Below, in pieces: positions 7,229 to 38,560 of a stretch of DNA of 44,619 nt. The stretch's first letter is position 1. Each line of letters begins with the position of its first letter. The notes beneath the pieces are model-generated. The model was not told the origin of the DNA. It searched no databases and saw only the letters and a list, made by a program, of their open reading frames with translations. Both the position numbers and the translations under genes were made by a program. Origin of the DNA: Bacteroidales bacterium (GTDB taxonomy: Bacteria > Bacteroidota > Bacteroidia > Bacteroidales > UBA932); the NCBI GenBank assembly GCA_017617035.1, contig JAFZWV010000001.1, forward strand, positions 1 to 44,619. Reading direction: 5' to 3'.

Positions 7229-7230
7229 AG

Positions 7231-8363: not shown

Positions 8364-8371
8364 TATCTTTG
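8364..8371 (+). promoter_or_regulatory. Promoter -7 box (TATCTTTG) for the SusC operon
   Basis: TATCTTTG matches the Bacteroidota -7 consensus. Transcription would start near 8377, leaving a leader of about 29 bases to the ATG at 8406. This excludes the in-frame TTG at 8376 as a start. No clear -33 TTTG was found. Confidence 0.75.
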
Positions 8372-8395: not shown

Positions 8396-8405
8396 AAGAC
8401 ACTCA

Positions 8406-11400: not shown

Positions 11401-11546
11401 CCCTTCGCTTCTATCTGCAGGGCTCGAACCTCCTTACCTTCAGCGGCCTTACCAAGTACAACATCGACCCTGAGCAGCCTGGTGTCAACAACGGTTACTA
11501 CCCGCAGCAGAAGACCTACCAGCTCGGTGTTAAAATCACTTTCTAA
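8406..11546 (+). CDS. SusC-family TonB-dependent outer-membrane transporter
   Basis: Outer-membrane transporter that imports oligosaccharides with its SusD partner, powered by TonB. It has 1046 residues from the ATG at 8406. The signal peptide is cut near AFAQ (about residue 22). A carboxypeptidase-regulatory-like domain (GKVTDSQGEPIPGASVFVSG, about 27-105) is followed by the TonB-box/plug junction typical of SusC (LNEVVVVGYGTQQKASLT, about 102-120), the plug to about residue 220, and a 22-strand barrel ending in aromatic F (VKITF). The start at 8376 is rejected because it overlaps the transcription start. SusD follows after 12 bases. It defines this region as a polysaccharide utilisation locus, but the glycan cannot be told from SusC alone. 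Confidence 0.97.
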   Translation: MKPRRLLLIALMLPLSVITAFAQHIVQGKVTDSQGEPIPGASVFVSGTQNGVITDFDGLYRIEAAPNATLEFAFLGMKTQTVAINGRKTINVTLEDDSTVLNEVVVVGYGTQQKASLTNAVSTVKGAELLKAPAVGVATAVGTRVAGVVALQESGQPGADAASLLVRGQGAICIVDGVPRDLNEIEPNEIESISVLKDATSAAMYGLNSSAVILVTTKRGDVQKTRISYNGEFGISQNTNMLRLLNGPEYAYWYNKAYELDCDAFDTEFTPVFTAQHVQWMQEGTHGWGNTDWYSKTFGTGTTQHHNISATGGNEKVKFFTSLGYYDQEGNVNNFWYQRYNLRSNVDAKITDDLTFGMNVAARLEQRHRPGFSADPGDWSNIPQQAVRALPYVPETYEIRGTVYPVSTRTASSWVNPLAASEETGRQDTRYTYLQSDMSLKYDVPFVKGLSLKEMVSFDAAFQFGKQLATPYYTAVLTLPTAGVTDLSYSLSNDARGTTISQTEGGAWSWNINTQTSIDYDGEFGGHKIHALALLETRENRSHAFGATGYGLDFVQQDELNYVTNQTGDGSEKIPAISGYSGHTRVAGYAARVNYSYKDKYLLEASFRYDGSYVFEGKSGARWVALPGVSAGWAINKEDWFDVNGIDLLKLRASIGKTANSNVAAYQYMDLVSLSKKQVVFGGASESMVYASTLGNPNLTWAKVLNYDVGIDFEAWKGLLGLEFDVFYKYEYDILSGVTGSYAPSRGGYYYSYGNENKRDYKGFDLTLRHNNYIGDLNYGAKVILTYAYRRWLYYAGDSDNTPDYLKLTGKEVGAQQGFIALGLFRTDSEAANSATIPGKSVAAGYIKYLDRNGDGKITYEQDRGYVAGSPYPRVQGSINLFASWKGIDIDMLWQGATGRTVSLTGVYTATGSEGIMDNTFLTKPFYHGGNSPLFLLENSWLPENKDGEFPRPSITPLSSNNAFSSTFWYRDGSYLRLKTLQIGYTVPQAVNRFLGVTALRFYLQGSNLLTFSGLTKYNIDPEQPGVNNGYYPQQKTYQLGVKITF

Positions 11547-11558
11547 GGAGGACAGGAT

Positions 11559-13166: not shown

Positions 13167-13171
13167 GCACT

Positions 13172-14851
13172 ATGAAAAAGATACTCTACATAATAATTGC
13201 GATTGCGGCGGCTATGCTGAGTTCCTGCCAGGAGCCTGAAGATCTGGTTCCCGCCCAGGCCCGCAACGGTATCAACAGCGTTACCGCTTATTTCCTCTAC
13301 GACGACCGTGAGGAAAACGAGTTCGGCAGCGAGATCGACTACGAAAACGGTATTATCACCATCGTATTCCCCTACACCTATCCGGCCAATACTGAGTCTC
13401 ATCTTGAGATGGATGACCTCAAGAAGGTGAAGGTTGTCGCTGAACTCGACGACAATGTAGTGGTCGACCCGCCGCTCCTAATCATGGATCTTACCCGCGA
13501 CGACAACTATATCACGGTTACCGACCAGCGAAAGCAGAAGAAGACCTATCATATCGTAGCTGAGATACGCAAGAGCAATCTCTGCCAGATACTGAAGTTC
13601 GAACTTCCGTCGATCAATGTAGCCGGCGTTATCAATGAGGGCGCAAAGACAATCTCGCTGATTTACGATTCCGATATTCCAGCGATGAAGGCGGAAGCTA
13701 AGCTTTCATTTGGAGCGTCCTTTACTGGAACAGACCCGACCAAGACAGCCGTCGCCTACCCTGTAAGCACCCCGGTTAGCCTGACGGTTGTCGCACAGGA
13801 CGGCGTTACTACTGCTACCTACACTGTCTCCATCTCTACCCCGGATATCCTCGATAAGGGCATGCGCTACGGCAGCGAAAAGATGCTCTGGCACGTCAAT
13901 CTCGCCACTTTGGGTATAGGCAACACCTTGCTCACGGGAGGTATGGCGGTTGTGGGTGATAAAATTGTTCTCAATACCCGCGACGAAGATATGGTAGTGC
14001 TGAACGCTGAGACCGGCGCCAAGGTAGGCACCATAGCCCTTGACTTCAAGGGTAATCTGGCGAATTTCTACTGCACGGCGGACAATAACGACAACATACT
14101 GATAAGTAATTTTGTCGCAAAGGGTTCTTCCGACAAACTGACGGTTTATCGTCTTAAAGGAATTGGCGGTGCCCCGACCAAATATATCGAATTCGATTCC
14201 GGCGGACTGTCTGTCGGGCGAAAGATATCCGTCATCGGGTCTTTGGATTCAGATGCGATTATAACCGCACCTATTTATCAGGAAGGAACTGAATTCTACC
14301 GTTGGACAGTGACAGGCGGCGTGCTTGATCCCACTCCCGCCCATGTCGTAATGGCTGATGAAAACATAGCCGCCTGGAACTATGCGTGCGATATTATTTA
14401 CTCAAGCCCAACAGATGTAACTTCCGACTATTTTGTTGCCAGCTACTCTGCCATTACGGGTGGAGACCGAAATCACCTGTGGATGGACGGCAAGACGAAT
14501 AAAATAAAGTATATGAGTCCGAATTACAGCGGTAACTGGGTGCCTAATGCAGTGGATTACATTGTGTTCAATGGTGCTTCATTTATTGTCTGTAATACCG
14601 TGAACGCAGCTTCCTGGGGAGCGGATGATGTGATCTATCTCTATGATTTGAGTAAGAATAATCTTGACGAAACGGCATGGCAGTGTGAGAAGGGCGTATA
14701 TGGTTCCTTCGCGACAAACAGCCTGGTCAATGCCAACTATACCGGCGACGTGGCCCTTCGCCTCTCCAACGACGGGTACTATATGTACATCTACTTCATG
14801 TTCTCGGGAGGCCAGATCGCAAAGGTTCAGTTCGACTGCCTGAATATGTAA
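13172..14851 (+). CDS. DUF5018-like surface lipoprotein, candidate SGBP
   Basis: A 559-residue lipoprotein in the position after SusD where surface glycan-binding proteins usually sit. The signal peptide ends in lipobox LSSC (about residue 18). Residues about 25-215 hold repeated Ig-like beta-sandwiches with the DUF5018-like pattern (VTDQRKQKKTYHIVAE and, later, VVAQDGVTTATYTVSIS, each ending a domain). Residues about 230-559 look like a beta-propeller (MAVVGDKIVLNTRDEDMVVLN and similar strands). No catalytic motif is visible. The start at 13172 is chosen over 13157 because MKKILYIII begins the signal peptide and avoids overlap with SusD. Family assignment is tentative. Confidence 0.78.
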   Translation: MKKILYIIIAIAAAMLSSCQEPEDLVPAQARNGINSVTAYFLYDDREENEFGSEIDYENGIITIVFPYTYPANTESHLEMDDLKKVKVVAELDDNVVVDPPLLIMDLTRDDNYITVTDQRKQKKTYHIVAEIRKSNLCQILKFELPSINVAGVINEGAKTISLIYDSDIPAMKAEAKLSFGASFTGTDPTKTAVAYPVSTPVSLTVVAQDGVTTATYTVSISTPDILDKGMRYGSEKMLWHVNLATLGIGNTLLTGGMAVVGDKIVLNTRDEDMVVLNAETGAKVGTIALDFKGNLANFYCTADNNDNILISNFVAKGSSDKLTVYRLKGIGGAPTKYIEFDSGGLSVGRKISVIGSLDSDAIITAPIYQEGTEFYRWTVTGGVLDPTPAHVVMADENIAAWNYACDIIYSSPTDVTSDYFVASYSAITGGDRNHLWMDGKTNKIKYMSPNYSGNWVPNAVDYIVFNGASFIVCNTVNAASWGADDVIYLYDLSKNNLDETAWQCEKGVYGSFATNSLVNANYTGDVALRLSNDGYYMYIYFMFSGGQIAKVQFDCLNM

Positions 14852-14852
14852 T

Positions 14853-16292
14853 ATGAAGAAAGCTACAATAATCATTTCGCTGCTGGCCGCATTCTTGTTT
14901 GTTTTTGCGGCCTGCGGCGACGATGGCCACACCTCGTTCAAGACCCCGGAGTGGGACTTGTCGGGCCTGACCGACGACCCTGCCGGGCCGGAAAATCCGA
15001 CAGATACTTCCGGTACGGTAGACCCCGTCACTCCTCCGACCCCGACCAAACCCTTCTACATCTGGGTCGACGCGGCGGCCAATTTCCCCGACTTCGCCAA
15101 TTCGAAGGACAACATCAGGCGCGACCTGCAGCTGGCCAAGGACACCGGCTTTACCGATGTGGTGGTCGACGTCCGTCCGACTACCGGCGACATCCTGTTC
15201 AGCTCGAGCGTCGGAACCCCGGTTGCATGGCTGGGGGCATGGGTTACCGGCGGTTACAAGAAATTCGAGCGCACTGCCAGCTGGGACTACCTCCAGGCCT
15301 TCATAGATGCCGGCCATGAACTTGGTTTGCGCGTACATGCCGCTATCAACACCATGGTGGGCGGCAACAAGACCAGCCTCGGCCAACAGGGCATGCTGTA
15401 TCGCGACTCTTCAAAGAAGAGCTGGGCGACTTATTATAACCTCCAGTCCGGAATCACGAATGCGGTAGATGCGGGCCAGAATACCCTCTTCTACAACCCG
15501 GCCCATCCAGATGTGAGGGCCTACCTCCTTCAGCTCATAAAGGACCTTGCATCGTATAAGGACCTGGACGGAATCATCCTCGACCGCTGCCGCTACACCG
15601 GACTTGAGACTGACTTTTCCGAGGTCTCAAAGACCCAGTTTATGGAGTATATCGGGGTCGTGACTCTGGAGTGGCCCTCAGATGTCCTTCCCGCGGGTGC
15701 GACTTACTCCAACCAGCCTTCGAGCAAGCCCAAGTACTATAAGAAGTGGCTCGAATGGCGCGCCAAGGTCATCCACGATTTCGTAGAGCAGGCCCACGAC
15801 ATAGCCCATGCGCAGAACGCGAACATCAAGTTCGGTGTTTATGTAGGCGGATGGTATAGCCAGTACTACGATGTCGGCGTGAACTGGGCAAGCCCCAGCT
15901 ACAATACGGCGGCTTACTACAGCGACTGGGCGTCATCTGACTATAAGAAATACGGTTTTGCCGACCATTGCGACCATATGCTGATAGGCGCTTATGCCAA
16001 CCCGGGCAATGTCTATGGATCCAGTGAATGGACCATGCAGGGCTTCTGCCGACTTGCAAAGCAAAAAATCGGCACCGCATGCCCTATAGTGGCTGGCGGC
16101 CCCGACGTTGGAAACTGGGATTCAGACGACAAGTACACCCAGGATCAGGAGAACCAGGCAATAACTAACTCTGTGAAAGCATGTTACGACGCCTGCGACG
16201 GTTACTTCCTCTTCGATATGGTCCATCTTAAAAAGGCGGATCAGTGGAGATACGCAAAGGCCGGAATTGACCAGGCCCTTGGCAAACAATAA
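14853..16292 (+). CDS. GHL10-type glycoside hydrolase-like lipoprotein
   Basis: Predicted surface or periplasmic lipoprotein of 479 residues. Lipobox FAAC (about residue 20) is followed by a Pro/Thr linker containing DTSGTVDP, shared with the phosphodiester glycosidase at 1586-2668. The rest is a TIM barrel of the GHL10 (PF02638, 'family 10 glycosylhydrolase-like') type: FTDVVVDVRPTTGDILFSS (strand with Asp), LGLRVHAAINTMVGG, and DGIILDRCRYTG (about 239-250), the last carrying the conserved Asp that is the likely catalytic or binding residue. It is the fourth gene of the SusC operon, 1 base after the previous stop. A paralogue lies at 41676-42926 with DGFQLDYCRYN at the same place. The substrate is unknown; some GHL10 relatives act on amino-sugar glycans. 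Confidence 0.82.
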   Translation: MKKATIIISLLAAFLFVFAACGDDGHTSFKTPEWDLSGLTDDPAGPENPTDTSGTVDPVTPPTPTKPFYIWVDAAANFPDFANSKDNIRRDLQLAKDTGFTDVVVDVRPTTGDILFSSSVGTPVAWLGAWVTGGYKKFERTASWDYLQAFIDAGHELGLRVHAAINTMVGGNKTSLGQQGMLYRDSSKKSWATYYNLQSGITNAVDAGQNTLFYNPAHPDVRAYLLQLIKDLASYKDLDGIILDRCRYTGLETDFSEVSKTQFMEYIGVVTLEWPSDVLPAGATYSNQPSSKPKYYKKWLEWRAKVIHDFVEQAHDIAHAQNANIKFGVYVGGWYSQYYDVGVNWASPSYNTAAYYSDWASSDYKKYGFADHCDHMLIGAYANPGNVYGSSEWTMQGFCRLAKQKIGTACPIVAGGPDVGNWDSDDKYTQDQENQAITNSVKACYDACDGYFLFDMVHLKKADQWRYAKAGIDQALGKQ

Positions 16293-20041: not shown

Positions 20042-20072
20042 AAGGCGGAACCCGAAAGTTCCGCCTTTTTTT
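20042..20072 (+). terminator. Intrinsic terminator after the beta-helix lipoprotein
   Basis: AAGGCGGAAC (20042-20051) pairs perfectly with GTTCCGCCTT (20058-20067) around a CCGAAA loop and is followed by a T run to 20072. Confidence 0.93.
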
Positions 20073-20074
20073 GT

Positions 20075-20082
20075 TAACTTTG
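20075..20082 (+). promoter_or_regulatory. Promoter -7 box (TAACTTTG) for the FAD oxidoreductase
   Basis: An exact TAnnTTTG match begins two bases after the end of the upstream terminator's T run. The transcript would start near 20088, about 16 bases before the ATG at 20104. This excludes the in-frame start at 20071. Confidence 0.72.
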
Positions 20083-20103
20083 AGAAATAACTATAATTCG
20101 AAT

Positions 20104-21906
20104 ATGAAGAGAATCGTTTTTGCTGCAGTGGCGGTCCTTTGCGCGATAGCGTGTACGCAGAAAGTTGATGTTCTGGTAGTGGGCGGCGGTGCGTCCGGTA
20201 CTGCGGCCGGTGTTCAGGCTGCGCGAATGGGCGCGCGTACGATGATAGTGGAGGAGACGCCATGGCTGGGAGGCATGCTTACTTCGGCCGGAGTGTCGGC
20301 TATCGACGGAAACTACCGCCTGCGCGGCGGCATCTTCCGCGAGTTCACCGACGCCGTAGCCGAGCATTATGGCGGCTACGATTCCCTCAAGACCGGCTGG
20401 GTCAGCCATATTCAGTTCGAGCCCAGGGTCGGAGAAGCAATACTCGAAGACATGGCCGCGGCCGAGCGCAAACTCCAGGTCGTCAAAGGCCTGGTGTTCG
20501 TCCATGCCCATAAACTTGACCATGGCTGGGATGTCTGCTTCGACGACCCCGACGGCGAGCGCGTGACGATTCGCTGCAAGGTGCTGATCGACGGCACTGA
20601 GCTCGGCGATGTCGCGAAAGCCTGCGGAGTCGCGTACCATATCGGCTTCGACCCGCGCAGCTACACCGGCGAGGAGATGGCCCTGGAGGAGGGCAACGAC
20701 ATCGTCCAGGATATGACCATGGTCATGACCATCAAGGACTACGGCCCGGACGCCGACATGACTATCCCGCGCCCCGAGGGCTACGACCAGAGCATGTTCG
20801 TGAACTGCTGTAAGAACCCGCTCAACGATGCTTCAATCTCGAAGGGCCAGCCGCTTTGGTCGCCCGAGATGATGCTCTCCTACGGTCTGTTGCCTGGCGG
20901 CGAGATGATGATCAACTGGCCGGTTGAGGCGAACGACTTCTACGCCAACATCATCGATATGACGCGCGAGCAGCGGGATTCGGTTATTGCCGTGGCCAAG
21001 CAGCGGACGCTCGGCTTCCTGTATTTCTTGCAGACTGGTCTGGGCATGAAGAACCTTGGCCTTGCCCCCGAGTATCCGTCGGAAGACGGCCTTGCGCTCT
21101 TCCCGTACTATCGCGAGAGCCGCCGCATCGAAGGCGAGCACCTGTTTACCCTGGACGAGGCCCGCGAACGCTATTCGACCAATGCATACCGTACCGGCAT
21201 CGCGGTGGGGGACTATCCGGTCGACCACCATCACCATGCCCACCCGTCATGGGAGTCGCTGCCGAAGATGATATTCGCGCCCATCCCTTCGTTCACCCTG
21301 TCTCTGGGATCGCTGATTCCGCTGAAGGTTGAGGACCTGGTTGTTGCGGAGAAGTCAATCAGCGTGACTAATCTTATTAACGGCTCGACCCGCCTGCAGC
21401 CCGTCGTCGTCGAAATCGGCCAGGCAGCCGGAGTGCTGGCCGCACTTGCGGTTAAGCGTCGCTGCCCGGTGCGTTCGGTCGACGTGCGTTCGGTTCAGAA
21501 GGAGCTGCTCGCCGCGGGCGCCTACCTGCAGCCCTGGCTCGACCTTAAACCTGGAGAAGAAGGCTTCGAAGCAATTCAAAGAGTCTCCTCTACCGGCATT
21601 CTCCGCGGCGAGGGCCGCAATGTCGGCTGGTCCAACGAATCTTGGCTCCACACTTCGGATCCTCTTCGCTGGAACGAACTCGACCTGGGCGAGTACTACG
21701 ACTGTTGTGTCGTCGACTCCTCCGACCCCGTCACTCTGGGCGAATTCTATGAATTGCTCGCCGGTCTCGGTGCGAAGATCCCAGACGATGTCATTCCGAG
21801 CGAAGCGAAGGAATCTTCTATCTCCCGCCTCGACGCCGCGATCCTGATCGATAAATACCTCGATCCTTTCTCCAGGCCGGTAGACTTCAACGGAAATCTC
21901 CTTTAA
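20104..21906 (+). CDS. FAD-dependent oxidoreductase lipoprotein (FAD_oxidored family)
   Basis: Predicted exported flavoprotein of 600 residues. The signal peptide ends at lipobox AIAC (about residue 16), and the nucleotide-binding Rossmann motif VLVVGGGASGTAAGVQAARMG follows almost directly. WLGGMLTSAGV (about 55-65) is typical of the PF12831 family, whose members are common in carbohydrate utilisation loci. It probably oxidises or reduces a sugar or sugar-derived compound, but the substrate is not known. The C-terminal part (about 485-600) resembles the SLH-like end seen in related Bacteroidota enzymes. Codons at 21790-21816 (about residues 563-571, IPSEAKESS) come from a genomic palindromic repeat in frame. 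It is transcribed alone from its own promoter. Confidence 0.85.
   Translation: MKRIVFAAVAVLCAIACTQKVDVLVVGGGASGTAAGVQAARMGARTMIVEETPWLGGMLTSAGVSAIDGNYRLRGGIFREFTDAVAEHYGGYDSLKTGWVSHIQFEPRVGEAILEDMAAAERKLQVVKGLVFVHAHKLDHGWDVCFDDPDGERVTIRCKVLIDGTELGDVAKACGVAYHIGFDPRSYTGEEMALEEGNDIVQDMTMVMTIKDYGPDADMTIPRPEGYDQSMFVNCCKNPLNDASISKGQPLWSPEMMLSYGLLPGGEMMINWPVEANDFYANIIDMTREQRDSVIAVAKQRTLGFLYFLQTGLGMKNLGLAPEYPSEDGLALFPYYRESRRIEGEHLFTLDEARERYSTNAYRTGIAVGDYPVDHHHHAHPSWESLPKMIFAPIPSFTLSLGSLIPLKVEDLVVAEKSISVTNLINGSTRLQPVVVEIGQAAGVLAALAVKRRCPVRSVDVRSVQKELLAAGAYLQPWLDLKPGEEGFEAIQRVSSTGILRGEGRNVGWSNESWLHTSDPLRWNELDLGEYYDCCVVDSSDPVTLGEFYELLAGLGAKIPDDVIPSEAKESSISRLDAAILIDKYLDPFSRPVDFNGNLL
21790..21816. repeat. 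GTCATTCCGAGCGAAG repeat inside the FAD oxidoreductase gene
   Basis: A 27-base copy, GTCATTCCGAGCGAAG followed by CGAAGGAATCT, lying in frame near the 3' end of the gene. Related copies are at 5368-5394, 38524-38560 and 39919-39991. Confidence 0.8.
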
Positions 21907-21927: not shown

Positions 21928-22020
21928 GCGTGCACACTCTCCTTAAATCAGGAGGGAGTATGAGCAAAAAAGGCCAAAAATGAACATACCCCCCGGTTTT
22001 TGCCGGGGGGTATGCACGTT
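21928..22020 (+). repeat. Paired-hairpin (REP/BIME-like) element, copy 1
   Basis: Starts GCGTGCACACTCTCC, forms one hairpin closing at GGAGGGAGTATG, continues with an A-rich spacer AAAAAAGGCCAAAAA (21965-21979), then a strong hairpin CATACCCCCCGG / CCGGGGGGTATG (21985-22014), and ends GCACG. The same plan is seen at 25120-25212 in the same orientation. There is no T run, so it is not an ordinary terminator, although the second hairpin could stop transcription of the convergent genes. Confidence 0.75.
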
Positions 22021-22036
22021 TTCGGTTCAACCGAAT

Positions 22037-23128
22037 CTATTTTTTCATATGTCTTTTGATGTGCGGGAGCAGCCACTCGGCGTAGCGCATCATGCCGAGG
22101 TCGGTGAAGTGCGTGTTTTCGACGAAAGCTTCGTTGTCGTCTCCGACCATATCATCAGACTTGACGTACCAGATCTTTTTCTCTCCCTGCTTCTTTAGCT
22201 TCTTAAACAGAGCTCTTTGCGCGGCGTTTTTCTTGTCGACTTCTCCCCTTATGAAACTGTCCCACTCATAATGTGCGAAGTGAGGATCTTCAAGGAACAG
22301 TATCGGCACATCCGGATGTGCGTCGCGCACTATCCTGAAGAACTTCTCTCCTTCCTCGCCGGCGATCAGGTAATCCCAGGCGTTTGGAACGTAATCGAAT
22401 ACTATTAATGCGGGGTCCTCGACCGAGGCTATCAGTTCCGCTATCTCATAATCGAGCAGAGCGTTTCCGCTGAAGCCCAGGTTGATTACCTCGCGGTTCA
22501 GTCTGCGGGAAATGATGCTGGTGTGGCACATTCCAGGCCTGTTGGCGCATCCGCCCTGAAGGATAGACGTGCCGTACATCACAATCGGCCTTTCGTGCTT
22601 AGGGCTGTCGACCGCCGGCTGCTCGACCACTGCCGTGGAATCGACTCCGATCTCAAGAGAGGTAATCCCATCGTACAGAGGCAGATATAGCATGTACTCG
22701 CGCCACTCGGGGGTCATGTTTGCGACGATTCGGTCGGTTGTAGTTTTCCCGTCGATCTTCGGCTTACCGGCTCCCATGAAACGCCATTCGTTTTTCGCGG
22801 TAAGCGTGTAGAGGTCAACGCCGCGTGTGCCGATCAGGGTCTGGTGGTTCATGTGGTTGCCGAACTTCGCGGTCCAGCGGCACCAGATCGCCGTGCTGTT
22901 GGAGCGGAACCTTATATACAATCCCGCGCTGTTGCGGCCAAGATACCAGACGGCGTCGCGCGAACGACCTTCGAACTCGGCAGGCAGGCGCTCGTAGCGC
23001 TCTTTTGTGTCATGACGGGCCTTGCCGTAGAGGGGTAATTCGTCGGCGTTGGTCCAGACTTGGGCCTTAACCGGAAGTGCGGCTGCCAACAGCAGAGCAG
23101 CCATAGCGAAGATTCTACTTGAATTCAT
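22037..23128 (-). CDS. SGNH-fold hydrolase/esterase with N-terminal beta domain
   Basis: A secreted 363-residue enzyme (signal peptide cut after LPVKAQ, about residue 22). An N-terminal beta-sandwich (about 30-160) precedes an SGNH hydrolase domain: GTSILQGG (about 180-187) carries the nucleophile Ser, GFSGNALLD the Gly/Asn oxyanion block, DYVPNAWD a block near residue 250, and ENTHFTDLGM near the C-terminus the catalytic Asp/His region. Family members remove acetyl or other acyl groups from glycans. The start overlaps the stop of the upstream esterase gene by 14 bases, so the two are translationally coupled. A hairpin element of the REP type follows directly downstream. Confidence 0.85.
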   Translation of the reverse strand: MNSSRIFAMAALLLAAALPVKAQVWTNADELPLYGKARHDTKERYERLPAEFEGRSRDAVWYLGRNSAGLYIRFRSNSTAIWCRWTAKFGNHMNHQTLIGTRGVDLYTLTAKNEWRFMGAGKPKIDGKTTTDRIVANMTPEWREYMLYLPLYDGITSLEIGVDSTAVVEQPAVDSPKHERPIVMYGTSILQGGCANRPGMCHTSIISRRLNREVINLGFSGNALLDYEIAELIASVEDPALIVFDYVPNAWDYLIAGEEGEKFFRIVRDAHPDVPILFLEDPHFAHYEWDSFIRGEVDKKNAAQRALFKKLKKQGEKKIWYVKSDDMVGDDNEAFVENTHFTDLGMMRYAEWLLPHIKRHMKK

Positions 23129-24200
23129 AGGACTTCATGGGGAGATCCCAGTTCATGAGGGTTGAGATGAACGGAGCCACGACGCTCGCGACCTTGCGGT
23201 TGCCGCTGTAGTTGGGGTGCCATGCCGCTCCGAGGTCGGTGTCGTCGTAGCGGAAGCAGCCTTTCATGATGGGCACGACCTGGATATTCTTGAGCCCGCT
23301 GCGCTCCACGGCCGCATAGACATAGTCGTCCATCAGCTCGTCGCAGGGCGAGGCCATGCAAATGATGGGGACTTCGGGACCATGGAAAGCGCGCACCTTC
23401 TCGAGCAGCACTTTGTAGTTCTCGCACCATGCCGCCAGGCTCGGCTGTTTCCCGACCGAGAAGTCGTTGGTCCCAAGGTAGATGACGACCAGGTCCGGCT
23501 GGTAAGTCGGAGTCCATGCATCCTTCTTGAGCCCGTCGAAGGTCTGGCTATAACGCACGACCATGTTCTCGGTGGCATCGAAGTCGCCGTAATTGCGTAC
23601 GATTCCACGGCCGCTGTGGCTGATATGCACGGTCTCAGCATCGAACAAACGACCGAGAATTGCGGCGTAAGTGCGGGCGGGATTCTCCTCGGAAATGAGG
23701 AACGGGCCGTCGTGGTGGAGGGCTTCCATGCCGTAGCCGCAGGTGTAGGAGTCGCCGATAAACTCGATGAGACGCCTCTTCGGAGCGGGTGCCTCGTCGA
23801 ACTTGCCTTCGGTATAGAGTTCAGTAAGAGTAAAAGCGCCAAATTCTCCCTCCGTACGCTTCTGAAGGATAACGGTGTGTTCGGCGGCCTTTTTAGTGTC
23901 CACTAAAGTGATCAGGGTATCAGACCAAATCTTCAGGACGCGGTCCTCGATAGGACCCTGCTCGGAATCCACCCAAAGATTGAAATACTCGGTCTGGTTC
24001 GCCGAGCATACCATCTTGAGAGACTTGCCCTTAAACTTGAGCCTGACGGTAGTGGCGCTCCAGTCGAAACTGACGGAACCGTCTTCCTGGACTTCGGTAC
24101 GTCCGATATAAGAAATCTTCGAGTCGGAGCCCTTGATAGTCTCGGCTCCGCAAAGAATGCAGCTCAACAGCGCTGCCGCTATAAGAAGAGTCTTTTTCAT
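23115..24200 (-). CDS. CE2-like SGNH carbohydrate esterase
   Basis: A secreted 361-residue esterase with signal peptide (cut after about residue 19). An N-terminal jelly-roll (about 20-140) is followed by an SGNH domain with GDSYTCGYG (about 149-157, Ser nucleophile), SHSGRGIVRNYGD (oxyanion), YLGTNDFS (about 243-250) and AAWHPNYSGN (about 324-333, catalytic His). This two-domain order and these motifs match carbohydrate esterase family 2 deacetylases. It would remove O-acetyl groups from a glycan so glycosidases can act. It is the first gene of the two-gene esterase operon, with a -7 box only a few bases before its ATG. Confidence 0.87.
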   Translation of the reverse strand: MKKTLLIAAALLSCILCGAETIKGSDSKISYIGRTEVQEDGSVSFDWSATTVRLKFKGKSLKMVCSANQTEYFNLWVDSEQGPIEDRVLKIWSDTLITLVDTKKAAEHTVILQKRTEGEFGAFTLTELYTEGKFDEAPAPKRRLIEFIGDSYTCGYGMEALHHDGPFLISEENPARTYAAILGRLFDAETVHISHSGRGIVRNYGDFDATENMVVRYSQTFDGLKKDAWTPTYQPDLVVIYLGTNDFSVGKQPSLAAWCENYKVLLEKVRAFHGPEVPIICMASPCDELMDDYVYAAVERSGLKNIQVVPIMKGCFRYDDTDLGAAWHPNYSGNRKVASVVAPFISTLMNWDLPMKSYEFK

Positions 24201-24205
24201 ATCTA

Positions 24206-24213
24206 CAAATGTA
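24206..24213 (-). promoter_or_regulatory. Promoter -7 box (TACATTTG) for the esterase operon
   Basis: An exact TAnnTTTG match on the minus strand ends 6 bases before the ATG at 24200. The expected transcription start (5-8 bases downstream) falls on or next to the start codon, so the mRNA would be leaderless or nearly so. Confidence 0.6.
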
Positions 24214-24224
24214 CCAAAAAAGTA

Positions 24225-25010
24225 TCAGACTTTATCTATAAGATTCGCCGCCTCGGAGTAGGTTATCCCGCAAGCTCTGGCCGCTTGAGTGAGATCCGCG
24301 CTGAAACGGTATCTGATCTGTCTAAGACACTCGGTTTGCTCATCTCGTGTTAGTTCTGAAAACGAGTTTTTTTGAAACAGGCTTCGAAGAAGTTCCGGGA
24401 GAGCTTTGAAAATGGTTTGATCTGTAAAAGCGGGGAGATTATACTCCGAGGAAAGTCTTTTTTTTGCTTTGGAAGAGTTGCGGATGAAATAATCCATTCT
24501 TTGTGGAGACCTGAAACGTTGTTCTACCGAAGCTGTTTTTACATAGTTATCGGGGAGAATAAAACTTCTATCTCCAATAATCCAATTACCGGGCAGAGAC
24601 TCGGCAGAATGAAGTATTTTTCTTAAAGACCGCTTTGAGTAATCGCTCAGGCAACTTCCTTGGGATTTTACTGGTTTAAAATACACATTGCCGGATCCCC
24701 ACGGGTATTGGCTGGGATGGAGGCAGATGCCGGCAACGACACAGTTCATAAGAACATATGCTAGAGCTCGTTCGAGGTTTTCTCCCTCAAGTGGAATCAA
24801 CTCCACATCCAAATCATTTTCGTTTAGCAGTTGCTTAATACCATACTTGAGTTGGTAATAATGAGAGTACCGGCGCTTCAAGTCATTCACAAATCTAACA
24901 GCGTCCTCTTTCTCGCCATATAAGACGAAGTGGACATGGTTCGACATTAAGATGAAAGCAAGGATAAATACTCCATTATGAATAAATGCTTCAATCGCCA
25001 CATAATTCAT
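24225..25010 (-). CDS. REP-associated tyrosine transposase (RAYT, Y1_Tnp)
   Basis: Single-strand DNA transposase/nuclease of the Y1 (HUH) type. From the first in-frame ATG at 25010 it has 261 residues. The HUH motif is in LMSNHVHFVLYG (about residues 22-33), and the candidate catalytic Tyr lies in LKRRYSHYYQLKYG (about 44-57). The C-terminal region (about 165-261) has a helical RYRFSADLTQAARACGITYSEA segment typical of Bacteroidota RAYTs. The frame is open upstream of 25010 and reads STEHLEDALWFRDDDDFTVG, which also belongs to the family, so the native protein starts further upstream. See the separate entry for 25011-25103. RAYTs mobilise palindromic REP sequences, and two paired-hairpin elements flank this module. 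Confidence 0.88.
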   Translation of the reverse strand: MNYVAIEAFIHNGVFILAFILMSNHVHFVLYGEKEDAVRFVNDLKRRYSHYYQLKYGIKQLLNENDLDVELIPLEGENLERALAYVLMNCVVAGICLHPSQYPWGSGNVYFKPVKSQGSCLSDYSKRSLRKILHSAESLPGNWIIGDRSFILPDNYVKTASVEQRFRSPQRMDYFIRNSSKAKKRLSSEYNLPAFTDQTIFKALPELLRSLFQKNSFSELTRDEQTECLRQIRYRFSADLTQAARACGITYSEAANLIDKV

Positions 25011-25103
25011 CCCTACCGTAAAATCGTCATCATCACGGAACCATAAAGCATCCTCGAGGTGTTCCGTCGAGTTTTTTCTCTTTTTGTCCCGTCCTCACGG
25101 CAT
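25011..25103 (-). other. Upstream in-frame part of the RAYT gene, interrupted by TGA
   Basis: Minus-strand codons from ATG at 25103 read M-P, then TGA at 25097-25095, then an open frame (GRDKKRKNSTEHLEDALWFR) continuing into the RAYT. The residues after the stop look like the normal RAYT N-terminus, so either the gene carries a nonsense mutation at codon 3 or it starts at a non-ATG codon. No ATG, GTG or TTG lies in frame between 25094 and 25013. Confidence 0.6.
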
Positions 25104-25119
25104 AAGTTTATTCACCTTA

Positions 25120-25212
25120 GCGTGCATACCCACATCAAAAAACAGGGGAGTATGCGCGAAAAAGGACAAAAACGCTCATACTCCCCTTAAAAATGAGGAG
25201 GGTATGCACGCA
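25120..25212 (+). repeat. Paired-hairpin (REP/BIME-like) element, copy 2
   Basis: Begins GCGTGCATACCC and ends GGTATGCACGC, with two internal hairpins (CATACCC...GGGGAGTATG and CATACTCCCC...GGAGGGTATG) separated by AAAAAGGACAAAAA. It is the same size and orientation as 21928-22020 and lies 16 bases upstream of the RAYT's likely original start. Confidence 0.78.
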
Positions 25213-25270
25213 GGAGTGGGAACCGATCGGAGCGATGGCTGGCTGTGCGCTGAAAACAGAAAAAAATACG

Positions 25271-25299: not shown

Positions 25300-27462
25300 A
25301 TGAAGATACTGAAACTAACCCTGATTTTAGTGCTGGCCGCGGGACTAACTGCGTGCGGTACTAAAGATGAACGCCAGGCGGCAGCCCTTGCCGGCAGAGT
25401 GATGGGCAAGCAGGCCAAGTCGATAGTTTTTGAGCAGATTAAAAGCGATACTGATGTCTATGAACTCAGTCAGAAAGGCTCAAAGATTCTCATCAAAGGT
25501 AACAACGCCAACTCGATGGCGGTCGGTCTCAACAGATATCTTCAGGAGTATTGCCTTACTAACGTCAGCTGGTACGATTTTAATCCAATCGAAATACCCG
25601 AATTCCTCCCGGAAATACCAGTGCCAGTAAAGGCGACAGCCGAGGTCCCCGACAGATTCTTCCTCAACTACTGCACCTTCGGCTACACTATGCCGTGGTG
25701 GAAGTGGAACCAGTGGGAGCGCTTCATCGACTGGATGGCCCTCAACGGAGTGAATATGCCCCTTGCTATCACCGGTCAGGAGGCTGTATGGCAGAAGGTC
25801 TGGCGCAAGTATGGACTTACAGACGAGCAGATCAGGGCATATTTCGTGGGTCCGGCCCATCTGCCATGGCAGAGGATGTGTAACCTCGACCGTTGGCAGG
25901 GTCCGCTCCCGCAGAGCTGGATCGACGGCCAGGCGAAGCTCCAGAAGAAGATCCTTAAGCGGGAGCGGGCCCTGAACATGACGCCCGTGCTGCCCGCCTT
26001 CGCCGGACACGTTCCAGCTGAACTCGCTGAAGTCACCCCCGAAAAGATCGACACTTTCCGCGTCAGCTATTGGGGCGGCTTTGCGAACAAGTACCGTTGC
26101 ACTTTCCTCAGCCCGATGGACCCCATCTACGCCAGAATCCAGAAGGACTTCCTGCAGGAGCAGACGAAGATGTACGGCACCGACCATATCTATGGAGTCG
26201 ATCCGTTCAACGAAGTCGACGCCCCGTTCTGGGATCCCGAGACCCTGGCGAAGATTTCGAAGGGAATTTTCGATTCCATGACCGCGGTTGATCCGGATGC
26301 AGTCTGGCTCCAGATGGGCTGGCTCTTTTGGGCTGACCAGCAGCATTGGACAGACGAAAATATCAAATCGTATCTGACCGCCGTGCCCCAGGGTAGGATG
26401 ATAATACTCGACTACTTCTGCGACGCGACTCAGATCTGGAAGCGCACCGAGAGCTTCTACGGCCAGCCGTTCATCTGGTGCTATCTGGGTAACTTCGGTG
26501 GCATGACCGGCATCGAAGGAGACTTCCACCAGAACGCCGAGTGGCTCGCCGAGACCAAGGCCAACGCCGGCCCCGGTTTCGTGGGCCTGGGCTCTACCCT
26601 TGAGGGCTTCGGAGTCAACGAGGCGGTATATGAGCATGTCCTCCAGCAGGCCTGGAGCAACGCCATGCCCGTAGACCAGTATATCGACAACGTCGCCGAC
26701 AGGCATCTTGGCCGCCAGGACGAAGCGTTCCGCCAATATTGGCACCTCTATGCCGACAAAGTCAGCGTGACCCATTCAAAGACCTCCAGTTCGAGCATAA
26801 TCTGCGCTCATCCCAACCTGGAGGGCTTCTGGCACTGGACGACCCTCTTCAACAGGGGGTATGATATCAAAGATCTGGAAGCGGCATTGGAAATACTCGA
26901 GACGGTTGAGGGCTCCTCAAACTACTTTGGGTACGACCTCGCCAATGCCCGCCGTCAGGTTATAGACAATAAAGCCCTCGAAGTTCGCGACCGTTTTGCG
27001 AAAGCATACAAGCAGGGCAACAGGGCTGAAATGGTTAATGCCTCCGAAGAGTTCCTTAAACTTTGCGACGAATTGGTAAGCGTCCTGAAAACGCGTCCTG
27101 AATTTTCCCTCTGTGACTGGATTCGCGACGCCCGCAGCTGGGGCGAGAACCCGCCAGAGAAGGACTACTTCGAGATGAACGCCCGTACGCTCATCAGTGT
27201 CTGGGGCGACTCCTTCCACCTCTCGGACTACGCAAACCGCGACTGGGACGGCCTTGTCGAGACTTATTATAAAGTCCGCTGGAGAATGTTCTTCGACGCG
27301 GTCCTGGCGGCCTTCGACGCCGGGGAGCCGTTTGTCAACCCGAAGAGCACGGGCTATGTCGGGACTTCCGCCCAGGGCAGCGCCGAGGGCGTCGAAGGCC
27401 GCGCCCTCCAGTTCGACAGGGATATTTGGGATTTTGAATGCCATTGGGCACACATCAGATAA
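25300..27462 (+). CDS. Alpha-N-acetylglucosaminidase (GH89, NAGLU family)
   Basis: Removes terminal alpha-linked GlcNAc from glycans; human NAGLU does this in heparan sulfate, and bacterial GH89 enzymes do it on mucin-type alpha-1,4-GlcNAc. It has 720 residues, a lipoprotein signal with lipobox LTAC (about residue 19), an N-terminal alpha/beta domain (to about 110), a catalytic TIM barrel (about 115-450) and a helical C-terminal domain. Diagnostic stretches are NYCTFGYTMPWWKWNQWERFIDWMALNG, GVDPFNEVDAPFW (about 305-317, candidate acid/base Glu) and GLGSTLEGFGVNEAVYE (about 429-445, candidate nucleophile Glu). It is the first gene of an operon running to 38428; the first GH97 gene follows after 3 bases. 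Confidence 0.95.
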   Translation: MKILKLTLILVLAAGLTACGTKDERQAAALAGRVMGKQAKSIVFEQIKSDTDVYELSQKGSKILIKGNNANSMAVGLNRYLQEYCLTNVSWYDFNPIEIPEFLPEIPVPVKATAEVPDRFFLNYCTFGYTMPWWKWNQWERFIDWMALNGVNMPLAITGQEAVWQKVWRKYGLTDEQIRAYFVGPAHLPWQRMCNLDRWQGPLPQSWIDGQAKLQKKILKRERALNMTPVLPAFAGHVPAELAEVTPEKIDTFRVSYWGGFANKYRCTFLSPMDPIYARIQKDFLQEQTKMYGTDHIYGVDPFNEVDAPFWDPETLAKISKGIFDSMTAVDPDAVWLQMGWLFWADQQHWTDENIKSYLTAVPQGRMIILDYFCDATQIWKRTESFYGQPFIWCYLGNFGGMTGIEGDFHQNAEWLAETKANAGPGFVGLGSTLEGFGVNEAVYEHVLQQAWSNAMPVDQYIDNVADRHLGRQDEAFRQYWHLYADKVSVTHSKTSSSSIICAHPNLEGFWHWTTLFNRGYDIKDLEAALEILETVEGSSNYFGYDLANARRQVIDNKALEVRDRFAKAYKQGNRAEMVNASEEFLKLCDELVSVLKTRPEFSLCDWIRDARSWGENPPEKDYFEMNARTLISVWGDSFHLSDYANRDWDGLVETYYKVRWRMFFDAVLAAFDAGEPFVNPKSTGYVGTSAQGSAEGVEGRALQFDRDIWDFECHWAHIR

Positions 27463-29442: not shown

Positions 29443-31394
29443 GAAAACTTATAACGCTCATAGCCCTCTTCTCGCTCGCGACCTTCAGTCTCACAGCGAG
29501 GGATTTCCTGCTCAAATCGCCGGACGGCTCTATAGAACTGATCTTCTCCGACAGCGGATCCCTCAGTTGGAGCGTCAATAGGAATGGGGCGACCATTCTG
29601 GAGCCCAGTGTCATCGACATCAATATCAACAGTCTTAACAAGCAAGCCGGCGAGTCGTTCCGTGAGGTGAAGTATTCCGTCATCAACGACATCATCACCG
29701 CCACCGTACCGACCAAGTACCGCTGGATACAGGACTGCTGCAACCAGATGACAGTCGACTATGGAGACGGACTGAGCCTTATTTTCAGGGCTTATGACAA
29801 TGGCGTAGCATACCGATTCTATCTTCGCTACAGCGACGGTTTTGAGGTGACAAGCGAGACTTCTGAGTGGAAGCTTCCAGCCGGCTCGAAAGCTTACTGG
29901 GCAAACGAAAAGAATCCCGATTACATCACTCACGCAGAGGCTTTCTTCAAGGAGAGAGTTATAGAAGAAATTGGCTACGATACCTACTGCTATCTTCCCG
30001 TAAGCATTAAAACTCCCGACGGACTCAGGCTGGTTATAACCGAGTCCGACCTCGTAGACTATCCCAACATGATGCTTCGCGCAGGCGAGGGTAGTACACT
30101 CAAGGCTGAATTCCCCCACATCATAGATGAATACGAGATGCGCACCGACCGCGATGTGACCGTCACTAAACTGGCCGATTGCATAGCACGCTGCGAAGGA
30201 GTACGCTATTGTCCATGGCGCATACTCTGCATCGGAGATGATAGGGAATTGCTGGAGAACACTCTCGCATGGCAGCTTGGAGGCGATGAAACCTATGGAG
30301 ACTGGAGTTGGCTGAAGCCCGGTAAGATCAGCTGGGAATGGTGGTCGGCTATCAATGTCTTTGGCGTAGACTTCAAGGCGGGGGTCAATACTGACACCTA
30401 CAAGTATTTCATTGATTTCGCGGCTCAGTACGGCCTCGAATATATTCTGCTCGACGAAGGTTGGTCGGCTTCGACACTCAACATAGTTGAGGCCCAGCCG
30501 GACCTCAATCTTCAGGAACTCATCGATTACGGAAAGTCGAAGGGCGTAGGCGTGGTGCTGTGGACCCTGTGGACTCCAATGATGAAAGACCTTGAGCACA
30601 TCCTCGACGTCTATGCTGAATGGGGCGTCTCGGGAATCAAGATAGACTTCATGCAGATGCAGGATCAGAATATGGTGCGCTTCTACGAGCGTGTCGCAAG
30701 CGAATGTGCGAAGCGTCATCTCCTTGTTGACTACCATGGCGCCTATAAGCCCGCAGGCCTGCATCGCAGGTATCCCAACGCCATGACCTTTGAGGGCGTC
30801 CATGGCATGGAGCATGACAAGGACTCGGCCGATATCTCGCCCGACCACGACATGGTCCTGCCGTTTACCCGCATGGTCGCCGGCCCGATGGATTACACTC
30901 CTGGAGCCGTTAACAATGCGACAAAAGATGATTACAATCCGCTGTGGTATCACCCCATGAGTCAGGGAACCCGAAGCCATCAGGTCGCGCTTTTCGTTGC
31001 ATACGAGAGCCCTCTGATGATGCTTTGCGATACACCGTCTAAGTATTATCAGGCCCCGGAATACGTAGAATATCTTGCGAAGATTCCTACAGTCTGGGAG
31101 CAGACGGTGGCGCAGGAAGCCGAGGCAGGGGAGTATCTGCTCATCTCGCGCAAGACTTCCGATGGCCGCTGGTATTCAGCCGGCCTTACCAACTGGAGTG
31201 GACGTGAGCTTACTCTCGACACCACCTTCCTTGGAGAAGGACAGTGGGAAGCGAAAATCCACCGCGACGGCGTGAATGCCGACACATGGGCGGAGGATTA
31301 TAAGATAGAAACTGTGACCATTACTGCCGGAGACGAACTCCCGGTGATAATGGCCAAGGGCGGCGGATGGGTCGCCGAATTCATTAAAAAGTGA
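29439..31394 (+). CDS. GH97 glycoside hydrolase, retaining (alpha-galactosidase-like) type
   Basis: A secreted 651-residue GH97 enzyme with an ordinary signal peptide (cut near SLTA, about residue 20). It differs from its neighbour in having the retaining-subgroup marks: VSGIKIDFMQMQDQ (about 395-408), whose Asp is the nucleophile in the Bacteroides GH97 alpha-galactosidase, and VDYHGAYKPAGLHRRYPN, with Gly where inverting members have the base Glu. The family's AGPMDYTPGAV follows. Predicted to remove alpha-galactose or a similar alpha-linked sugar with retention. It overlaps the gene on either side by 4 bases (upstream) and 1 base (downstream), showing tight translational coupling. Confidence 0.92.
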   Translation: MRKLITLIALFSLATFSLTARDFLLKSPDGSIELIFSDSGSLSWSVNRNGATILEPSVIDININSLNKQAGESFREVKYSVINDIITATVPTKYRWIQDCCNQMTVDYGDGLSLIFRAYDNGVAYRFYLRYSDGFEVTSETSEWKLPAGSKAYWANEKNPDYITHAEAFFKERVIEEIGYDTYCYLPVSIKTPDGLRLVITESDLVDYPNMMLRAGEGSTLKAEFPHIIDEYEMRTDRDVTVTKLADCIARCEGVRYCPWRILCIGDDRELLENTLAWQLGGDETYGDWSWLKPGKISWEWWSAINVFGVDFKAGVNTDTYKYFIDFAAQYGLEYILLDEGWSASTLNIVEAQPDLNLQELIDYGKSKGVGVVLWTLWTPMMKDLEHILDVYAEWGVSGIKIDFMQMQDQNMVRFYERVASECAKRHLLVDYHGAYKPAGLHRRYPNAMTFEGVHGMEHDKDSADISPDHDMVLPFTRMVAGPMDYTPGAVNNATKDDYNPLWYHPMSQGTRSHQVALFVAYESPLMMLCDTPSKYYQAPEYVEYLAKIPTVWEQTVAQEAEAGEYLLISRKTSDGRWYSAGLTNWSGRELTLDTTFLGEGQWEAKIHRDGVNADTWAEDYKIETVTITAGDELPVIMAKGGGWVAEFIKK

Positions 31395-34300
31395 TGAAAA
31401 AAATATTTTTCGGTCTTTTTGCGCTGCTTCTGAGCGCCCAACTCTACGCTTCGTCGTATGTCGTCTCCGGCCATGTTTTTGACCAGAGCGGCAGGCCAAT
31501 CGCAGACGTTAAGGTAACCGACGGCTATAAATTCGTCAGAACCGACGCGCAGGGCGCTTATGAAATAGATGTCCACGACGATGCTACCTTCGTTTATGTG
31601 ACCATCCCGGCCGGATACGAGACTCCCGAGTGGCACGGTGCGCCTCTGTTCTACCACGAACTCGACCGTAAGGGTTCTACCCAGTCCGTCGATTTCAACC
31701 TTGTTAAGACGGGAGTCGACGAGACCAGACATATGTTCATGGTCTGGGCCGACGTCCAAGTCTATGAGGAGGAAGAGATAGAGTATGTAAAGGTCGCGGC
31801 GGCGGACGCGGCGCAGGTTGCCGAAGAAGCTGGGATTCCCGCTTTCGGAGTCTCCTGCGGCGACATCACCGGCGACTGGTGGAGCGGCATGTCAGTCGAC
31901 ATCCAGAAAGCTACCGCCGAGGCCGGCTTCCCGTTCTTCACACTAATGGGAAACCATGACTACAAGGGCGACGCGAAGACCAACGAAGACTCCAAGAGGC
32001 TCTACACCGACCTGTTCGGACCGACCTATTATTCCTTCGACAAGGGCCAGGTCCACTACATAGTGATGGACGACGTTTTCAACTATAGCCGCCACTACGT
32101 AGGTTACATCGAGAAGCATCAGCTTGAGTGGATCAAGCGCGATCTGGAAGATGTGCCGGCCGGTAATCTGGTAGTCGTGTTCTCCCACATCCCTACCTAC
32201 AGCTCGCAGGCCATGGAGCAGAACTGGCAGGGTGAGACTATGAACAACATAGTCACCAACCGCCAGGCCCTATACGACATCCTAAAGCCTTACAACGCCC
32301 ATATCTGCTCGGCCCACAAACATTTCGCAGAGAACTACGAGATTGCGCCCGGCCTTATGGAGCACAACGCGGCGCCTCTGAGCGGCCTCTTCTGGCAGGC
32401 CCTTATCGCTGCCGACGGAGTGCCGTGGGGCTATTATGTCTACGAAGTCGACGGCCAGAACATCAAATGGTATTTCAAGGGTGTCGGACTTCCTAAGGAC
32501 AAGCAGTTCAGCGCTTACCGTGTGGGCGAAGACCCCGAAAAGCCCGACTGCGTGGTAGCCAATGTGTGGAACTACGACAGCAAGTGGAAAGTCGAATGGA
32601 GTGAGAATGGAGTGCCGAAGGGCGAAATGGAACGCTACACCGGCCACGACCGCGCCATCATGAAAGACATCCATGACCGCTGCGAGAAGGAATACAAGTG
32701 GAAGTATCTCGGCCCCGCCAACTCCGTGCACCTTTTCTGCGCGAAGCCTTCGAGCCCTGACTCTTTTGTCGAGATAACCGTCACCGACGGTTTCGGCAAC
32801 GTCTCGAAGTGGGACAACTCCCGCCTGATCTACAAGACCGACGTTTATTCGTGGAACTCTGAGACTGTGGTAGATGGCCTTACGACGGCCAAGGCCTACA
32901 CTGCCCCCAGTCATCCCGAATATGGGACCTATACCGGCGCCAGCCGTCTGGAGACCTACCTCTACGACATGGCCGTTAACGAGCTCACGCTCAACAAGGA
33001 GAAGGACGGCACCTACCGCACGGGCCAGCTATGGGCGGGAGTGTGGACACGCGACATGAGCTACAGCGCGATTCTGTCGCTTGCCCATGTCGACCCCGAC
33101 GGCATGAAAGCCTGCCTGCTCCGCAAGGTCGACCGTAAGAACCGCATCATCCAGGATACCGGCACCGGCGGATCATGGCCATGCTCCACCGACCGCGAGA
33201 TCTGGGCCGCCGCCGCATGGGAGATCTACCTTGAGACCGGCAGCGAAGCCTGGCTCAGGCAGGTCTACCACATCATACGCCGCAGCCTCGACGCCGACAG
33301 GGTGGTCGCCTACAACCCGGCCACGGGCCTGTACCGCGGCGAGTCGTCGTTCATCGACTGGCGCGACCAGAGCTATCCGGAATGGATGCAGCCGGTCGAC
33401 ATCGCCCAGAGCGAGTGCCTTGGGACGAACGCCGTCTTCTACCGTGCGCTCGACGTGCTTGCCCGTATGGCCATGGTCATAGGCCACAAGAGCGACGCGA
33501 AGAAGTACGCCGCCCAGGCCGAAGCCCTGAAGGACGCCATCAACACCTACCTCTGGATGGAGGACAAGGGCTATTATGCCCAGTATATCTACGGCCGCAA
33601 TTCCCGCGTCCTCAGCCCGCGCTGCGAGACCCTCGGCGAGAGCCTCTGCATCCTCTGGGGCATAGCGGACGACCACAAAGCGGCGGCGATCATGGAGAAG
33701 ATGCCGCTCGCGCCTTACGGCCCGGTCATCTTCTCGCCGCAGATCGCCGCCCGCGGTTCCTACCACAACAACGCCGTTTGGCCGTTTGTCACCTCGTTCT
33801 ACGGGGCGGCGGCCGCCAAGGCGGGAAACCGTGCTGCCTTGCTCCATGCACTCGGATCCAACGCGCGCGCGGCCGCCGTCTTCGGCTCCCACATGGAGAA
33901 CCTGGTCGCCACCGACGGAACTACCCACACCGCCCTGGATTCCCCGCGCCAGCTGTGGAGCATAGCCGGCTACATCGGCCTCACCCGCACCGCCCTGCTG
34001 GGCATCAACTACGAGGCGGACGGCATTCATTTCGCGCCCGTCGTGCCCGCGTCCATGGAGGGAGCCCGCTCGCTCACCGGCCTGAAGTACCGCGGCATGA
34101 CGCTCGACGTCAACGTCATAGGCGAAGGCTCAATCATCAAGAGCTTCAAGCTCGACGGCGAGCCGGCCGAACCGTTCGTGCCCAACACGCTTACGGGTGA
34201 GCACAGCATAGAGATTGTCATGGTCAGCGACTATTACGCCGCCGCCGACAAGGTGACCATCCTGCCCGTTCAGTTCGATATCGACTACCCGCGCGTAAGT

Positions 34301-38523: not shown

Positions 38524-38560
38524 TGTCATTTCGACCGAGCGTAGCGAGTGGAGAAATCTT
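38524..38560. repeat. TGTCATTTCGACCGAGCG repeat, intergenic copy
   Basis: A 37-base copy of the repeat family, in the longer form that includes GAGCGTAGCGAGTGG. It is close to the reverse complement of 39919-39955 in aroC. It sits 22 bases upstream of the HAD phosphatase gene. Confidence 0.8.

Follow-up and report, generated by a model that had tools for sequence, protein, structure and literature searches.

Double-hairpin repeats beside a RAYT gene coincide with end points of apparent esterase inversions in a Bacteroidales glycan-degradation cluster

In REPtrons, as described in the accessible parts of three papers (PMC6006769, PMC2817692, PMC3733652), the gene of a Y1/HUH transposase, TnpA_REP or RAYT (REP-associated tyrosine transposase; REP, repetitive extragenic palindrome), is flanked by palindromic repeats that recur elsewhere in the genome. 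PMC2817692 also suggests, in general terms, that DNA rearrangements could be due to the activity of RAYTs. Here we analyse a window of 44,619 nucleotides from contig C26 of a gut Bacteroidales bacterium whose draft genome measures 1.64 Mb and is 80% complete; in this window, a RAYT-like gene and two esterase genes lie between two double-hairpin elements, L and R. The locus resembles the REPtrons of the same three papers (PMC6006769, PMC2817692, PMC3733652) in that there is in general one RAYT per repeat type and that repeats are found inserted in frame in genes; it differs from them in that the repeats coincide with inversion end points of resident genes. With a probability that we put at about 0.7, the locus would be a Bacteroidales REPtron in a resident glycan-degradation cluster, with its repeats of about 92 bp serving as the end points of inversions of the resident esterases.

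Other described systems are also close. Subclass 2.6 TnpA_Y1, which contains RAYT group 5, is according to the accessible text of PMC6006769 mostly found in Bacteroidetes, carries the motif NH[LIV]H, and has on its flanks 'atypical secondary structures' that recur at other places of the genome, as is the case here. Compared by description and not by profiles, it differs in its motif YIH[QN]NP and its length of 179 aa (a column which we took as the median length), against YVLMNC and about 289 aa in the window. The REPINs of fluorescens (PMC3116915) are of similar size to our elements and likewise RAYT-associated; in the part of that paper available to us, excision reads are reported and inversion is not mentioned. 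REPs usually exceed 100 copies per genome, according to the accessible text of PMC2817692, against 4-7 places here. A search of the literature on REPIN, RAYT or REP together with inversion or rearrangement, with incomplete coverage, showed no paper on inversions of this kind among the hits listed, judged by title and start of abstract. In the descriptions available to us, the invertible DNA of gut Bacteroidales resembles the locus in that segments are turned between inverted repeats. There, site-specific recombinases act on mostly short repeats with promoters, whereas the segments inverted here consist of whole genes and the repeats around them are REPIN-like elements.

The gene to the left of the inverted block in the window encodes an FAD-dependent oxidoreductase (FADox; 20071..21906, plus strand; PF12831, E 4.5e-93). 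It is followed by element L (21928..22019, plus strand; position El1), a 92-bp double hairpin in the now-convergent gap between FADox and the next gene and the left end point of the block. Three minus-strand genes come next: a GDSL/SGNH esterase (GDSL3, with GxDLY and Lipase_GDSL_3 domains; 22037..23128; PF14606, E 7.1e-54; PF14607, E 4.7e-47), a CE2-type carbohydrate esterase (23115..24200; PF17996, E 2.7e-18; PF13472, E 1.3e-14), probably a resident gene that was inverted along with the GDSL esterase, and the RAYT (24225 to 25010 or 25094). Element R (25120..25211, plus strand; position El3), also a 92-bp double hairpin, adjoins the 5' end of the RAYT and is the right end point. To its right, outside the block, stand a NAGLU-family alpha-N-acetylglucosaminidase (25300..27462, plus strand; PF05089, E 3.7e-137), two GH97 genes and more plus-strand genes. 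The original prediction was right that the pair encloses the RAYT and two minus-strand esterases within a plus-strand run, and we account for this island by an inversion between the elements.

For comparison, 400 genomes of the genus were searched with a neighbouring metallophosphatase/glycosidase gene (31391-34870), which gave 11 matches at E <=1e-200, the own genome included, and the cluster was studied in six close ones and, of four more distant ones, in G030, G075 and G078. Four of the close relatives are named Bacteroidales metagenome assemblies: G434 (RUG489), RUG374 (Tb.RUG.374; G321), G308 (RGIG10170, from yak rumen) and G278 (Red_deer_4_mag_165). Three close relatives have no RAYT at the locus. 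In G434, FADox, CE2, GDSL3 and NAGLU follow each other on the plus strand. In G430, CE2, GDSL3 and NAGLU do so, and the contig starts 370 nt before CE2, leaving FADox and anything further left out of sight. In G412, the plus-strand order is CE2, GDSL3, a DUF4434 gene and NAGLU, with no FADox or RAYT match in 6.7 kb leftward. The GDSL esterase copies of G430 (83% identical) and G434 (91%) are co-directional with NAGLU. The covariance model of the elements, at E up to 1, found no element in the stretches of these three or of the more distant G075 and G078.

On the other hand, the four RAYT-bearing genomes show three arrangements. In G308, nothing is inverted: FADox, an element, RAYT, an extra 1.7 kb, CE2, GDSL3, an element and NAGLU are met in turn, with all these genes on the plus strand. 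In G278 and RUG374, the esterases alone are inverted, and the order is FADox(+), element, RAYT(+), element, GDSL3(-), CE2(-), element, NAGLU(+). In the window, RAYT and esterases are inverted together. FADox keeps the same side in G308, G278, RUG374 and G434. CE2-GDSL3 is thus seen between elements in both orientations, between species only (G308 against G278 and RUG374). The comparison with relatives that had been proposed did yield an empty site, without RAYT and elements, but the esterases are still there, which indicates that CE2 and GDSL3 were flipped in place and not carried in. The extra segment of G308 (L243:3067-4820) holds a 450-aa open reading frame (ORF), which by eye resembles a C10-type peptidase, as well as a small lipoprotein-like ORF; on either side of it stands a copy of a CE2-type upstream/start segment.

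The sharpest pair is RUG374 and the RAYT-less G434, which are 97.6% identical over four proteins and 91-95% identical in DNA at the locus. Positions 4286-6395 of RUG374 correspond to 5131-7240 of G434 on the same strand (91%), 7633-9836 to 9445-7239 in the inverted direction (91%; 2.2 kb, CE2-GDSL3), and 9965-15215 to 9440-14693 on the same strand again (95%). The three pieces span G434 from 5131 to 14693 without a gap and nothing of G434 is lost, while RUG374 has two extras, 1,237 nt (element-RAYT-element) and 128 nt (the third element). The inverted piece stops 6 and 11 nt away from the elements at 7535-7626 and 9848-9939. These bracketing elements (X2/X3) are 95% identical in inverted orientation, and the corresponding values are 89% in G308 (B1/B3) and 81% in G278 (C2/C3); the elements either side of the RUG374 RAYT are 95% identical in direct orientation. 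The GDSL-to-element flank of RUG374 matches the GDSL-NAGLU gap of G434 (z 8.2) and its element-to-CE2 flank matches the FADox-CE2 gap (z 14.7), with some coding bases included in both cases.

In a blastn comparison with G308, the window runs in the same direction up to 21937 and from 25239 onwards; between these points, the segment 22009-25070, with the esterases and the RAYT in a single block, is inverted. The left direction switch falls inside L, and the right one in the 170-nt stretch (25070-25239) that holds R. The outer flanks match on the FADox side (z 5.0) and on the NAGLU side (z 15.8), and the GDSL-to-L flank of the window matches the GDSL-to-El3 flank of G308 (z 4.7; control 0.7), with a few coding bases included.

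The two elements had been described as about 93 bases long and of the same plan, and this was borne out by BLAST, fold and shuffle tests, the covariance model aligning 92 nt of each, 21928-22019 and 25120-25211. In DNA folds of the plus strand, R has a z of -10.9 and L of -4.3, with 0/200 shuffles as stable; R is predicted as one large hairpin and L as two separate hairpins. The REPIN plan of two REP-like hairpins in inverted arrangement, joined in a larger hairpin, is present, the large hairpin being that of the predicted fold of R. The pattern GTATGCRCG occurs 4 times in the window, always inside L and R, against 0.75 expected, and 0/100 shuffles reached 4. It was also predicted that L and R have the same orientation: they agree in direction when judged against two further copies on contigs C29 and C7, but the statement is a weak one for elements that each nearly equal their own reverse complement (68% identity direct, 64% inverted). 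By reading, no canonical GT[AG]G guide was found at the hairpin foot of L or R, which is CGTGCATAC/GTATGCACG, and the best Rfam match reached 24.7 bits against a gathering score of 114.

The element had been expected elsewhere in the genome and is present there. BLAST with R returned copies on C7 (E 1.1e-18), on C29 (E 5.6e-13) and L itself (E 1.1e-5), that is, 4 full copies including R, and a covariance model built from these 4 added C8:35203, C8:23425 and a diverged copy at C14:50727, giving 7 places; the scan used strict filters over many genomes, so that weak copies may be missed, in a draft that is 80% complete. By mechanical ORF lists, 4 of the places are between convergent ORFs (the C7 copy among them), 2 in divergent gaps (R and C14) and 1, the C29 copy, in frame inside a comF-like reading frame. 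The latter (C29:12031-12123; L003:1501-1593) lies in a variable loop of the comF-like gene, where by reading two relatives (L105 and L126) carry other palindromic inserts. The elements are a dispersed, multicopy family, REPIN-like in plan, but few in number and lacking the canonical GT[AG]G foot; double hairpins of about 92 bp in few copies and without that foot also set the locus apart from the described REPtrons.

Same-plan elements, whatever their sequence, were then sought at 30 RAYT loci, namely the window and 29 returned loci, which are part of the homologue matches. A stringent paired-hairpin detector found them within 1.5 kb at 15/30 RAYT loci and at 1/70 controls (0/27, 0/20 and 1/23). 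Flank-to-flank direct repeats scored >=45 at 15/29 RAYT loci and at 0/68 controls, where the top score was 37; the cut-off of 45 was picked after the scores were seen. By either detector, 22/30 RAYT loci have a same-plan element, and therefore the elements look like the RAYT's own repeats. The window locus fails both detectors because its stems are bulged and L is beyond the 1.5-kb flank. R stands at the 5' side of the window RAYT, while in G278 and RUG374 the RAYT is flanked by its palindromes on both sides. The two elements flanking a RAYT are often direct copies here, whereas inverted REPs are reported in the accessible text of PMC2817692. That the elements are the RAYT's own substrate family is thus supported only by association, through the dispersed family and the 22/30 loci. 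L was considered and rejected as the usual 3' partner of the RAYT: the 3' element of other RAYTs is mostly within ~0-170 nt, but L is beyond two genes, which we account for by the block inversion.

A possible second case of direction change was met at a locus with a uracil-glycosylase-like neighbour (named by eye). There the RAYT direction relative to that gene is mixed, 4 plus and 6 minus in ten labelled rows, 3 of which were judged from coordinates with RAYT and gene 1.7-2 kb apart. In the sister pair L025/L027 the RAYT directions are opposite, but the flanks are rearranged too, and the case is only suggestive.

The window protein is, by sequence, a weak yet consistent RAYT match. It misses the cut-offs of both NF047646 (29.6 bits against 80; E 5.4e-7) and PF01797 (22.0 against 23; E 1.8e-4). 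The latter is passed by the RAYTs of RUG374 (25.5) and G278 (23.6) and missed by that of G308 (22.0), and the former is passed by none of these three. The HUH motif NH[VLI]H is found in 35/35 aligned RAYTs, the window among them, and so is the tyrosine of the Y-motif. The class 2 Y-motif Y---NP (PMC6006769, accessible part) is missed, since the window has YVLMNC and the last two positions are NP in 3/35, NC in 23/35 and NS in 9/35; the motif here is mostly Y--MN[C/S], a further difference from the REPtrons. For the RUG374 RAYT, a low-confidence model (mean pLDDT 56.7) gave first 24 Foldseek matches that are all IS200/IS605-type or putative transposases (best E 0.011), while the sequence-based counterpart of this search gave only 2 matches, unrelated ribosomal proteins with E 0.85 and 0.94.

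R had been placed close to the start of the RAYT. An ATG does lie 15 bases from R (25102-25104), but reading from it meets a TGA at codon 3, and 25010 is the position of the next ATG in that frame. Before STEHLE the window protein has a lysine-rich stretch where a hydrophobic strand is present in 18/18 relatives compared. The 5' end thus looks damaged, while relatives carry intact RAYT copies. A RAYT homologue (E <=1e-30) was found in 57/150 genomes, own included, and the own genome has 7 RAYT-like genes at E <=1, the weakest at 3e-4. The six others are on C18, C32, C21, C6, C9 and C19 (L012-L017), and palindromic repeats of differing sequence lie beside several of them, such as tandem arrays at C18 and GGCGCC double palindromes at C21.

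We propose the following course of events. The ancestral order, judging from the close relatives without RAYT at the locus, would have been FADox-CE2-GDSL3-NAGLU in one direction. An element-RAYT(-element) unit would have entered the FADox-CE2 gap, and a further element the gap from GDSL3 to NAGLU; both are seen in place in relatives. In the window lineage, RAYT-CE2-GDSL3 would then have turned as one block, from the first to the last element, and in G278 and RUG374 CE2-GDSL3 would have turned between the second and the last. Recombination or template switching between inverted element copies, of which copies near 95% identity are capable, is the likely mechanism, possibly assisted by RAYT cleavage of single-stranded hairpins. 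The four RAYTs at the site form one clade (support 100/99), with the pairs window and G308 (97/87) and G278 and RUG374 (100/98); dS of the RAYT pairs is saturated. In the locus tree, RUG374 joins the RAYT-less G434 (100/100) and G278 is apart from the other four (99.6/97). The RAYT of RUG374 may therefore be a recent gain, through insertion or exchange, and the inversion there may be independent of that in G278. On the evidence of seven genomes, the least costly course would start from a G308-like order, with a single turn in the lineage of the window and one or two turns in G278 and RUG374.

The original prediction had gone further and proposed a possible composite mobile unit, with the elements as ends, by which the RAYT carries the two esterases into a glycan locus. 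The window elements do bracket exactly the RAYT and the esterases, and in RUG374 the esterases alone are bracketed by the 95% inverted copies. However, the cargo of a composite transposon should be missing from the empty site and the unit should recur at other sites, and both esterases are resident in the same cluster in 3/3 close relatives (G434, G412, G430) without RAYT or element in the stretch. Esterase content also varies without elements: in the more distant G075 and G078, the same downstream genes lie next to CE2, with no GDSL3 or NAGLU match and no element in the stretch. Among 36 RAYT loci with flanks up to 1.5 kb, an esterase match was found at the window only, and in G026 (L216:2186-5261, G026:C2) a gene that is DnaK-like by eye lies between two elements next to a RAYT, so that enclosed genes need not be cargo. 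This proposal is largely refuted and we regard it as very improbable. The window RAYT could instead have moved, if a G278-like order lost its FADox-side RAYT and regained it reversed beside NAGLU. The window esterases are indeed collinear with G278 (21928-24221 to 7140-9448), with only the RAYT reversed and displaced; but its 3' end abuts the CE2 upstream segment (24 nt), as if FADox-RAYT-CE2-GDSL3 had been turned as one block, and the window and G308 RAYTs are sisters (97/87), which makes such a move rather improbable.

The likeliest rival is that ordinary rearrangements fell in intergenic gaps, which the elements share because insertions elsewhere are selected against, and it draws on the first two of several observations that weigh against inversion between elements. 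Nearly every block gap in the RAYT-bearing relatives holds an element, so that a gene-sparing inversion would often end near one anyway. Order or strand is changed in distant relatives as well, with no RAYT match in G075 and G038 and only a 26% RAYT-like match in G065. Inversion is found in 3/4 RAYT-bearing genomes and 0/3 close ones without RAYT at the locus (Fisher about 0.11), where RAYT absence refers to the locus stretch and not to the whole genome and a RAYT left of the G430 contig start is possible. L and R share only 68/64% identity and, judged against third copies, point the same way, a setting in which simple recombination would give a deletion; if homology was involved, the event would be old or have used partial homology. 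For the inner flank of R on the RAYT side, G308 offers no significant match (z 0.8), which is consistent with the damage to the RAYT 5' end. The RAYT and locus trees disagree over RUG374 and FADox is a mosaic between lineages, so that lateral exchange has played a part. RAYT loci could not be told from controls (up to 41) by a whole-element palindrome score, a value of 120 at L045 being an artefact of masked N letters, and all genomes compared are single draft metagenome assemblies. Against ordinary rearrangements stand the positions of the end points (6 and 11 nt away from elements in the closest pair, inside or next to an element in the window), the similar inverted copies that bracket the block in RUG374 and G308, and the strand change from CE2 to NAGLU in 0/3 close relatives without RAYT (G412 has the extra DUF4434 gene). 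We therefore consider this rival unlikely and prefer inversion of resident esterases between the RAYT-associated repeats.

Distant relatives do not settle the polarity, since their NAGLU, GDSL and CE2 genes lie in shuffled clusters. In G030, a single contig without RAYT carries FADox-CE2 together with a GDSL gene whose match is limited to residues 232-363, and the RAYT-like gene of G065 (G065:C80, L183:3729-4487) stands in a related esterase/FADox cluster of different gene order. Elsewhere in the window, two tandem 39-nt palindromes (40534-40614; family D17, 72% alike) lie just 3' of an ORF at 39483-40526 (aroC by eye). A dispersed repeat like TGTCATTTCGAGCGAAGTCGAGAAATC is found at 5367-5395, 21789-21817, 38524-38559 and 39919-39990, one copy inside the FADox reading frame.

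The esterases keep their upstream segment and so probably remain expressed, though now on the strand opposite to FADox and NAGLU. The segment before CE2, TACATTTG or TAAATTTG, resembles the Bacteroidetes -7 box. An on/off switch is therefore not obvious, and the change would concern read-through with FADox and NAGLU. Promoter-like sites (3 against 2.6 in shuffles) and terminator-like sites (5 against 3.8) show no excess; one of the five terminator-like sites corresponds to L's right hairpin, read on the minus strand.

One doubtful answer to the question of what RAYTs do for their hosts is that in this Bacteroidales clade the RAYT acts as an invertase, which would cut REPIN-like elements in inverted orientation and turn the genes they enclose in a reversible manner. 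If this long shot were true, REPtrons would be gene-flipping switches in glycan loci and RAYT genes would persist through that service. The locus also corrects a tempting misreading, as a gene that lies between two elements near a RAYT is not necessarily cargo. At one site, close relatives offer a natural series of empty, occupied and two differently inverted states, including a pair with 91-95% identity, and with it the idea that RAYT/REPIN islands reshape neighbouring genes becomes testable.

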